Shown here in pieces: positions 3,215-39,945 of a stretch of 64,000 nucleotides of DNA; position 1 is the first letter of the stretch; every line of letters starts with the position of its first letter. The stretch is from Halorientalis sp. LT38. Its GTDB lineage: Archaea > Halobacteriota > Halobacteria > Halobacteriales > Haloarculaceae. Both the position numbers and the translations under genes were made by a program. The notes under the pieces were generated by a model. The model ran no database searches. It was not told where the DNA came from and saw only the letters and a list, made by a program, of their open reading frames with translations. The stretch is taken from the NCBI RefSeq assembly GCF_037031225.1, contig NZ_JAYEZN010000001.1, positions 868,001 through 932,000 on the forward strand, in the 5' to 3' direction.

Positions 3215-3371
3215 CCCCACGTTTTTGCGATAGTGAGGGACCGAAGGTCCCTCATACCATGTGAACGGGCGTCGTCCGAGAGAGCGGAGCTCTCTCGTGA
3301 TCACGAAAGTCGCTTCGCGCCTTTCGAACGACTTCGCGCCCCTGAGCATACGAGGTGCGCAGCGCGCACCT
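3210..3371. repeat. Composite hairpin repeat, copy 1
   Basis: Read on the minus strand, CAAAAACGTGGGGAAAAA (about 3211-3228) lies between the hairpin at 3179-3209 and a second one: TGAGGGACC at 3234-3242, loop GAA, GGTCCCTCA at 3246-3254. Further hairpins are CGAGAGAGC/GCTCTCTCG (3277-3297, loop GGA) and AGGTGCGC/GCGCACCT (3353-3371, loop AGC). The core motif recurs near 35838 and 60755. Confidence 0.75.
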
Positions 3372-3429: not shown

Positions 3430-3816
3430 ATGTTCGGAGGAGGCGGCGGTTTCGATCCGCAGAAGATGCAACAGATGATGGACCAGTTCGGCATCGACAT
3501 CGAGGAGCTCGATGCGCAGGAGGTCATAATCCGGACGCCGGACGAGGAACTCGTCTTCACCGACGCGGAAGTCCAGCGGATGGACGCCCAGGGCCAGGAG
3601 ACCTACCAGGTCATCGGGACGCCCGAGAGTCGCGCGCCCGGTGAGGGCGGCGCGGCGGGCGAGGTGACGGCGGCCGACGACGGCGGCAGCGGTGGGATTC
3701 CGGACGCCGACATCGAGATCGTCGCCAACCGGGCGGGCGTGAGCGAAGACGACGCGCGTGAGGCCCTCGAAGCCGAGGACGGCGACCTCGCGGCGGCCGT
3801 CGAGCGCCTGGAGTAG
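3430..3816 (+). CDS. nac: Nascent polypeptide-associated complex protein
   Basis: The 128-aa product is the archaeal homodimeric NAC, which binds ribosomes and shields emerging chains. The start [43 protein letters not shown] is the conserved N-terminal and NAC beta-barrel region (about residues 10-65). A low-complexity Gly/Ala/Asp linker follows, and a UBA domain ends the protein (about residues 88-128: [34 protein letters not shown]). Archaeal NACs start exactly with this MF-GGG segment, which fixes the ATG. The next gene begins one base after the stop, so the two form an operon. Confidence 0.95.
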
Positions 3817-39051: not shown

Positions 39052-39651
39052 ATGGACCTGGAGCGGGTCGGGAACTTCCGGGCGACCGGAGTGAGCGACG
39101 AGGAGCGCGAGGCCGCCGTGCTCGCGCCGGTCATCGTCCGTGACGGGAGTGAACACCTGCTTTTCACCAAGCGCGCGGACCACCTCGGCGAGCACCCGGG
39201 CCAGATGAGTTTCCCGGGTGGCGGCCGGGAGCCAAGCGACGCCGACCTCCAGGAGACCGCACTCCGGGAGGCCAACGAGGAGATCGGCCTCGACCCGTCG
39301 GAGGCGGACATCGTCGGCCGGATCGACGACATCCGCACGGTCACGCGCTACTCCGTCCGCCCGTTCGTCGGGACGATCCCGGACCGGACGTACACGCCCG
39401 ACGAGCGCGAAGTCGCCGAGATCGCGGTGCTGTCGGTCGCGGCGCTGACGGACATGGCGAACTACGAGTCCGAACGGCGCGACCACCCCCACTACGGCGA
39501 CATTCGCCTGCACTTCTTCCACGTCGACGGCTACACCGTCTGGGGCGCGACCGCCCGCATCCTCGTGCAGTTGCTGGAGTTGACCACCGACTGGGAGATG
39601 CCGGCGGAGGCCGACCGGGAGGTCGACCCGGACGCCGACCTCCCGATGTGA
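39052..39651 (+). CDS. Nudix hydrolase, coenzyme A pyrophosphatase type
   Basis: A 199-aa Nudix enzyme. HLLFTKRADHLGEHPGQMSFPGGGRE (residues 35-60) is the UPF0035 signature that marks CoA diphosphatases; it is followed by the Nudix box ending TALREANEEIGL (69-80) with REUXEEXGU intact. The first Glu of the general Nudix box is absent, as in other CoA-type members. The C-terminal part VTRYSVRPFVGTIPD is the usual third strand. Likely substrate is CoA or its oxidised derivatives. Confidence 0.88.
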   Translation: MDLERVGNFRATGVSDEEREAAVLAPVIVRDGSEHLLFTKRADHLGEHPGQMSFPGGGREPSDADLQETALREANEEIGLDPSEADIVGRIDDIRTVTRYSVRPFVGTIPDRTYTPDEREVAEIAVLSVAALTDMANYESERRDHPHYGDIRLHFFHVDGYTVWGATARILVQLLELTTDWEMPAEADREVDPDADLPM

Positions 39652-39692
39652 CCATTACGGAGCACTCGAACTCGCGGGGGTCTCGCGAGCAG

Positions 39693-39787
39693 AGAGGGAC
39701 CACAGGTCCCTCTGGCAGCCGGCGCAACGCGCCGGCGTTCACGAGAGCATAGCTCTCGTGAGCCAACCAGAACGCTCTGCGTTCTGG
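39693..39787. repeat. Four consecutive short-loop hairpins
   Basis: Perfect stems, each closed by three bases: AGAGGGACC/GGTCCCTCT (39693-39713, loop ACA), GCCGGCGC/GCGCCGGC (39718-39736, AAC), TCACGAGAGC/GCTCTCGTGA (39739-39761, ATA), ACCAGAACGC/GCGTTCTGGT (39766-39788, TCT). Spacers are 2-5 bases. The first and third stems resemble stems near 3234-3297. The CAAAAAC core is missing. The flanks (39652-39945) contain no gene. Confidence 0.8.
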
Positions 39788-39945
39788 TGACGACGGAGCG
39801 AGTGAGACCTCGCGAGGGAACGATCGACTGACCGAGCGAAGCGACGGAAGGAGTGAGTGGACTCGCGGGGAAGCGACAGCGTTTTGCGGCTCTCCGCCAC
39901 AGCTTTGCACAACCGAGCCGCGGGCGACCGCGGCCGACGAAGATC

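Follow-up and report, generated by a model that had tools for sequence, protein, structure and literature searches.

The block studied here lies between a NUDIX gene (39052-39651) and a DUF7388 gene, both on the + strand, within a 64,000-nucleotide stretch of the Halorientalis sp. LT38 genome that we call the window. Among named orthologues, those closest to the NUDIX gene come from Halorientalis pallida, regularis and persicus (87-89% amino-acid identity), in a listing that may omit the window's own record. An earlier note on this DNA had described four perfect hairpins with short spacers at 39693-39788, and all four are present as described, separated by 4, 2 and 4 bases:

39693 to 39713, no strand assigned: hairpin 1, 9 bp stem, loop ACA
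39718 to 39736, no strand assigned: hairpin 2, 8 bp stem, loop AAC
39739 to 39761, no strand assigned: hairpin 3, 10 bp stem, loop ATA
39766 to 39788, no strand assigned: hairpin 4, 10 bp stem, loop TCT

The region 39669-39825 folds with z = -9.2 as DNA and z = -10.0 as RNA, and none of 200 shuffles is equally stable. In the DNA centroid fold, all four hairpins lie within an outer stem (39671-39685 with 39803-39816), which is found again, in a slightly shifted register, in the RNA minimum-energy fold; it is absent from the DNA minimum-energy fold of the same region.

The earlier note had judged a chance origin very unlikely and named a shuffle of intergenic DNA as the check. Two controls bear on this. 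The first compared 864 kb of the source genome (the window and 40 stretches of 20 kb) with order-3 Markov sequence derived from the same stretches. Triloop stems of at least 9 bp number 49 against 15.8 expected, while single 8-bp triloop stems are in modest excess (55 against 37). Runs of hairpins, defined by loops of 3-4 bases, stems of at least 8 bp and gaps of up to 15, comprise nine pairs and one four, against one pair in three simulated sets. The second control was confined to intergenic DNA as delimited by our own gene calls (525 pieces, 101,632 bases). Here nine runs were observed (eight pairs and one four) and none appeared in 50 simulated sets, with 29 triloop stems of at least 9 bp against a simulated mean of 0.84. 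The judgement on chance stands.

A DNA search of the source genome with the block returned partial relatives in which neighbouring hairpins recur as pairs with a fixed linker. Related stems had been pointed out near 3234-3297 and are indeed found there, at 3234-3254 (TGAGGGACC) and 3277-3297 (CGAGAGAGC). They had been taken as a sign that hairpin 'words' are reused in different orders. Reuse in different orders is what we find, but the reused word is a hairpin pair joined by a conserved linker and not a single hairpin, and the orders differ because units occupy the loops of other units, linkers and edges. Each such twin-hairpin unit is about 47-60 nt long, with two near-perfect stems of 8-10 bp, mostly three-base loops, and a linker and ends that are specific to its family. 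The commonest forms, which are not strict consensus sequences, are CAG-hp1-nGGCA-hp2-GA for E1, TTnACGAG-hp1-(GAGCnA or TCGCACA)-CCAGAA-hp2-GACG for E2, TGGTy-hp1-TSATSA-hp2-ACGA for E3 and hp1-TACCATGCGA-hp2-GAGCAGA for E5. The E2 and E3 models weakly match each other's copies, so these two families are probably related.

In the focal block, each neighbouring hairpin pair corresponds to one unit. Relative to the source-genome copy L002 (564 kb), bases 39690-39793 are 104 extra bases after GCGAG. L002 reads GGTCTCGCGAG-CGAAGCGAGTGAGACC, with the same outer hairpin and without the 104-nt block; the comparison sets the outer boundaries at 39690 and 39793, and the insert starts directly after 39689. 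By analogy with the 49-nt insert of the L207/L333 pair, we read the 104 bases as an E1 unit (49 nt: 39690-39737 and 39793) plus an E2 unit (55 nt: 39738-39792). E1 would then lie in the loop of an older outer hairpin (GAG^CGAAG), and E2 3' of GGCG near the E1 end. The parts are as follows:

39671 to 39689, + strand: outer hairpin left arm (CTCGCG..GGTCTCGCGAG), same sequence without insert in L002, supported by the DNA centroid and RNA folds
39690 to 39737 with last base A at 39793, + strand: putative E1 twin-hairpin unit (CAG-hp1-GGCA-hp2-GCG), E1 model match at 39690-39741, 76 bits
39738 to 39792, + strand: putative E2 twin-hairpin unit (TTCACGAG-hp3-GCCA-hp4-GACG), E2 model match of 81.4 bits and flank rule
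39794 to 39816, + strand: outer hairpin right arm (CGGAGCGAGTGAGACCTCGCGAG), from the match to L002
39817 to 39870, + strand: remainder of the repeat common to L002, which matches at 97% over 77 bases (window 39794-39870)

As judged by eye, three Halorientalis species with conserved gene order lack the whole block at the orthologous intergenic position. The purine-rich repeat shared by 39794-39870 and L002 (GAGCGAAGCGAG type) is common to these two loci and absent from three relatives. In H. pallida (L049), the 3' end of the orthologous NUDIX gene (stop near 3597) carries three tandem copies of a unit of about 55-60 bases that, by eye, takes in the last codons of that gene. The region 39640-39900 of the window has no match in phage records, and a phage origin of the block was rejected on that ground; a known RNA family was rejected because Rfam returned no match above the gathering score in the window.

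Three further features of the window belong to the same set:

3234 to 3254, + strand: first hairpin of an E5-type unit (TGAGGGACC-GAA-GGTCCCTCA then TACCATGTGA), from the E5 linker pattern family
3271 to 3332, + strand: E3 twin-hairpin unit within the second E5 hairpin's loop (GGGCG...CGCCC), E3 model match of 90.3 bits
60771 to 60909, + strand: empty site, same sequence as source-genome 2420559 minus a 54-nt twin-hairpin insert, insertion point 60842/60843

The second window site (3234-3335) is an E5 unit holding E3, as compared by eye with the plain E5 copies L139 and L143. Composite copies occur elsewhere, a 138-bp element holding E3 standing at two differently flanked loci with 99.3% identity; composite elements can apparently move. 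At L081:2199-2320 (Haloarcula rara), an E3 linker holds an E5-type twin unit flanked on each side by TCATC, which may be a 5-nt duplication.

We compared sites with and without units by searching the flanks of model matches against all loci, which gave 138 rows, many of them redundant. From these, 26 pairs were chosen and aligned, covering 22 filled units, with one pair measured per unit. Clean comparisons, with one gap of 47-60 nt and no other gap within 15 columns, were obtained for 18 of the 22 units and represent at most 17 distinct events, since L234 and L222 share one site. The four others are L345 (one extra 1-nt gap), L135, L211 and L279. The clean alignments show whole units as present or absent at otherwise matching sites, which indicates whole-unit insertion. 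Repeated letters at the clean junctions number 0 in all five E3 cases, 0-5 in ten E2 cases (including ACGTT, CGTT and CAT) and 1-4 in three E1 cases. A target duplication of constant length is absent from the 18 junctions; the repeated letters mean that short duplications at E1 and E2 sites may have occurred.

The targets include other hairpins and other units. The right-end hairpin loop of IS605-type elements is empty in L233, L234, L237, L239 and L286 (the last with an imperfect stem) and filled with E1 in L222, L229, L329, L337 and L343, and in L324 it holds an E1 that itself carries a nested E3. The right-end hairpin of L345 also belongs to the IS605-type set with loops empty in some copies and filled in others. 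E3 lies in the loop of a hairpin after the tnpA gene in L347 and in the second hairpin of E1 in L324, L314 and L135, and an E2-type unit lies in an E3 linker in L349. Units also occur in the 3' part of frames downstream of tnpA (L344:439-1734, L345:970-2238 and L346:424-1479); TnpB similarity was tested with tblastn at two of these loci, L344 and L345 (under L238 and L239), and the tnpB name of L346 comes from its position. In L345 the unit inside the tnpB frame is of E2 type and 57 nt long, and the same place is empty in L343, L234 and L233.

The insertion points and ends have family-specific preferences. E3 lies at G^C in four of its five clean cases (L347, L350, L324 and L314), L329 being the exception. 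The 5' flank of E2, which lies outside the model, ends in CG in 52 of 72 copies (GGCG 17, GACG 16), and E2 itself ends in GACG in 46 of 72; the ends of E1 are non-uniform. An outer stem score of at least 6 was found around 44% of E1 copies against 18% in the control and around 50% of E3 copies against 22%, with no such excess around E2 (19% against 21%).

We then examined pairing in alignments that were fitted to the E1, E2 and E3 models and drawn from chosen loci (72, 100 and 99 sources, respectively). The E3 alignment took 99 matches, giving 91 distinct rows and 52 after flank de-duplication. Two-sided stem changes number 118 in E1, 256 in E2 and 291 in E3, each above all 500 shuffles, with the E3 pair counts inflated since that alignment holds both strands of many loci. 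G-T pairs make up 0.6%, 1.7% and 0.7% of standard pairs in E1, E2 and E3, whereas G-U pairs account for 7.3% (16/218) in 10 tRNAs of the source genome, the yardstick used here. Measured against this set of only 10 tRNAs, the stems lack the G-U-tolerant covariation of a structured non-coding RNA family. Non-standard pairs occupy 5, 80 and 90 cells, most of them at end pairs in E2 and E3. Together, the two-sided changes and the near absence of G-T pairs point to folding as DNA rather than RNA; given the small tRNA set and the model-fitted alignments, the G-T contrast is suggestive and falls short of proof. The pairing data fit selection for perfectly paired DNA, or correction towards it.

The families are widespread among haloarchaea. 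Covariance models built from four, three and two sequences matched at E<=1e-5 in 43 (E1), 49 (E2) and 46 (E3) of 58 genomes, the source genome included, with up to 51 E1 copies in one genome. The E5 linker pattern occurs in 18 of the 58, and the same pattern written backward, used as a control, gave a single match. BLAST with the two window sites also placed E2 and E3 on plasmids from several other genera of haloarchaea, among them Salinigranum, Halobellus, Natrinema, Halobacterium, Natronomonas, Haloferax, Natribaculum and Halorubrum. Most copies are diverged. Some units stand at contig ends (G039:C3:5-66, G039:C15:4-65, G052:C36:26-80 and G043:C36:7-62), as expected where near-identical repeats break assemblies.

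The genomic context of source-genome copies was assessed with 28 unit loci, listed by hand from matches at E<1e-3 and from the E5 pattern, and with gene calls from our own codon-score finder, independent of annotation. A strict set of 20 loci dropped eight rows judged weak by eye; these include L133 and L134, both at E = 7e-10, so that not every dropped row is in fact weak. Of the 28 loci, 24 are intergenic and four lie inside predicted reading frames, three of these at E 9e-6 to 9e-5. The fourth, L134:1501-1548 (source genome 2175690-2175737), is an E1 model match at E 7e-10 that may be a gene insertion or a chance look-alike. Convergent-gene gaps hold 11 of the 24 intergenic loci against 2.5 expected by intergenic bases (p 1.2e-5), co-directional gaps hold 11, and divergent gaps hold two against 10.3 expected (p 2e-4). 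Source-genome units are mostly found after genes and away from promoters. Two intergenic loci carry perfect stems of 18-19 bp with T and A runs around them (L009:7395-7433 and L044:8281-8323), which resemble two-way terminators; the L044 stem adjoins several hairpin units.

Taken as a whole, the comparisons make it highly probable that the block consists of two non-autonomous, self-nesting mobile palindromic elements, with E1 beside E2 in the loop of an older hairpin. The filled state would be the product of insertion, rather than the empty state a product of precise loss. Each unit would move in the form of folded single-stranded DNA, with cutting and joining in trans by an HUH enzyme of the Y1 type (IS200/IS605 TnpA-like). 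Units often lie in a hairpin loop or in another unit, so that Russian-doll structures accumulate, and perfect pairing would be kept at the DNA level by selection on the fold, by template-switch correction between arms, or by both. Any host role, such as terminator tuning or a part in mRNA 3' ends, would be secondary.

The alternatives differ in what they explain. Units might be RNA structures or terminator modules that the host maintains for a function at the 3' ends of genes, with their covariation arising from RNA folding. The convergent and divergent gap counts (11 and 2 of 24, against 2.5 and 10.3 expected) and the strong stem covariation speak for this, as does the adjacency of some units to T5C runs; in Haloferax such a run is a proven terminator and one hairpin terminates 59% of transcripts (PMC7237163). 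Yet any tolerated insertion would also be expected to avoid promoters, these stems have almost no G-T pairs, unlike those of tRNAs, and units inside tnpB frames and IS right ends, the three orthologous Halorientalis regions without the block and the lack of an Rfam match in the window all count against it, which leaves it unlikely. It is also quite unlikely that the hairpins arose and nested without transposition, by template switching and snap-back synthesis during replication. Identical linkers and ends recur across many genera and flanks, and the inserts are similar in length with clean junctions, which calls for copying of units and not for local growth. Enzyme-free growth would account for near-perfect palindromes with concerted two-sided changes, for the near symmetry of E3 and for loops of the second E1 hairpin in both orientations (GAA 11, TTC 6; GTA 9, TAC 4), although loops of the first E1 hairpin are hardly flipped (GAA 20, TTC 1; GGA 15, TCC 2). 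Template switching may nonetheless serve in the upkeep of stems.

That the units are broken-off ends of IS200/IS605 elements, either omega-RNA or right-end remnants in the manner of PATEs, seems very unlikely to us. E1 does sit in the right-end hairpin of several IS605-type elements, and tnpA or tnpB is close to some units. Related right ends without E1 exist, however, the ends of E2 and E3 differ from the IS end (GGATGTCAC), and TnpB was detected at only three of 29 E1 loci of relatives (L204-L232) by tblastn with two TnpB queries over about 3 kb per locus, a search that would miss distant or diverged tnpB. IS605 right-end remnants, a reading prompted by E1 copies near tnpB, were rejected as the whole story because empty right ends exist. 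Chance or the base composition of GC-rich intergenic DNA, which suits the modest enrichment of single 8-bp triloop stems, has next to no prospect of explaining the runs, longer stems, shared linkers and filled/empty pairs, and was rejected on the genome and intergenic simulations and the filled/empty comparisons.

Within the reading of the units as mobile elements, our leading guess for the mover, offered tentatively, is a past or imported Y1 enzyme acting in trans, with another single-strand enzyme ranked next. The likeness to Y1 transposition would lie in the short fixed 5' flank, the similar letters at the unit end, the lack of a constant duplication and the preference for foldable DNA. The source genome has no match to the Y1 transposase (PF01797, Y1_Tnp), and 24 of 27 genomes without a Y1 match carry units, so a Y1 enzyme would have to be past or imported and act in trans. 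Copy number correlates weakly with Y1 count (Spearman 0.28, 0.32 and 0.42), part of this correlation being trivial since IS605-type copies contain some of the units. Dependence on a resident IS200 transposase is unsupported, given the units in Y1-free genomes and the weak correlation. A bolder and rather doubtful proposal is that these are clade-wide archaeal elements that consist entirely of a foldable twin hairpin and by preference target the loops of other hairpins, building branched, self-nesting DNA folds. They would be moved as folded single-stranded DNA by a non-Y1 enzyme, with stems kept perfect by correction at the DNA level; an enzyme beyond the known Y1 transposases is proposed because many hosts have none.

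Among described elements, the SMR group of Haloquadratum walsbyi comes closest. SMR-A and SMR-B are too short to code, and their mobilisation was called enigmatic (PMC3119063, Dyall-Smith et al. 2011). By the authors' account, SMRs were described in one species, are 80-110 bp long with terminal inverted repeats and no target duplications, and target palindromes near the termini of IS605-type elements and PATEs (PMC3119063). The twin-hairpin units share with them haloarchaeal hosts, a non-coding size, IS605-type palindromes as a target and an enigmatic mover. Insertion of the SMR type in near-terminal IS605-type palindromes is seen for E1 in right-end loops and for E3 after tnpA (L347). Going by the published description, the units are set apart by two side-by-side hairpins, mutual nesting and occurrence in many genera, and by length, clean inserts being 47-60 nt against about 80-110 bp for SMRs (PMC3119063). 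E3 begins GTSGT in 38 of 52 copies and ends ACSAC in 40 of 52; by eye, no terminal repeat of this kind was seen in E1 or E2.

Nearest in form are the bacterial REP dimers (BIMEs, REPINs), which are paired short hairpins of the GTAG and CGTC families (PMC3733652, PMC3116915). They are described as lying mostly 3' of genes, with some within genes or inside other palindromes (PMC3733652). Paired hairpins, insertion inside genes, placement 3' of genes and dimers inside palindromes are thus common to both. The main text of that paper mentions archaea twice and 'halo' never. CGTC-class REPs lack a dedicated transposase and have loops of 4-5 bases and mostly CCA tails (PMC3733652). One end of E1 and E2 often bears GACG, which reads CGTC on the opposite strand. 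In columns covered by the model tails, GACG or GATG follows hp2 in 29 of 52 E1 copies, and GACG, GATG or GGCG ends 50 of 72 E2 copies. The units differ in that the CGTC REPs described are bacterial, with loops of 4-5 and a CCA tail, whereas most units here have 3-nt loops in a census restricted to loops of that size. The GTAG foot is absent among the commonest end and flank letters of the units, and a RAYT-type Y1_Tnp is absent from the source genome. Neither the SMR nor the REP definition fully covers the twin-hairpin units.

IS200/IS605 elements insert 3' of a short fixed sequence without target duplication (PMC7290912, PMC6006769). On this rule, E2 has its CG-ending flank in 52 of 72 copies but 0-5 repeated letters at its junctions, and E3 lies at G^C in four of five clean cases. 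Terminal hairpins are shared with these elements and PATEs, but the units lack tnpA and tnpB, have other ends and are hairpins throughout. Short paired hairpins whose mobility is inferred are also known as the double-hairpin elements of Allomyces mitochondrial DNA. Nested palindromes with inferred mobility are described in Volvox organelle DNA (PMC2670323). Both are likened to the units by form, as short paired or nested hairpins inserted into each other, and differ in belonging to organelle DNA. IS605 copies of Halanaerobium hydrogeniformans carry a 28-nt right-end insert and hairpin-bearing tnpB inserts (PMC7290912). These resemble the units, as described, in being short inserts in right-end structures and tnpB frames, and differ in that the host is a bacterium and the tnpB insert is one imperfect hairpin (PMC7290912). 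No published account of twin-hairpin units besides the SMR paper appeared among the titles and abstract openings listed, in which subscription journals are thinly covered.

If the mobile-element reading is true, archaea own a counterpart to the bacterial REP dimers with defined units, ends and targets. Some genomes carry dozens of copies, which would make the mover of transposase-free palindromes testable in a haloarchaeal host. That G-T intermediates are nearly absent would be a natural record of the maintenance of perfect palindromes in DNA. Units also enter intergenic regions and tnpB or right-end sequences. The filling of IS605-type right-end loops by E1 may alter the omega RNA, and with the 57-nt unit inside the L345 frame the protein would gain about 19 residues.
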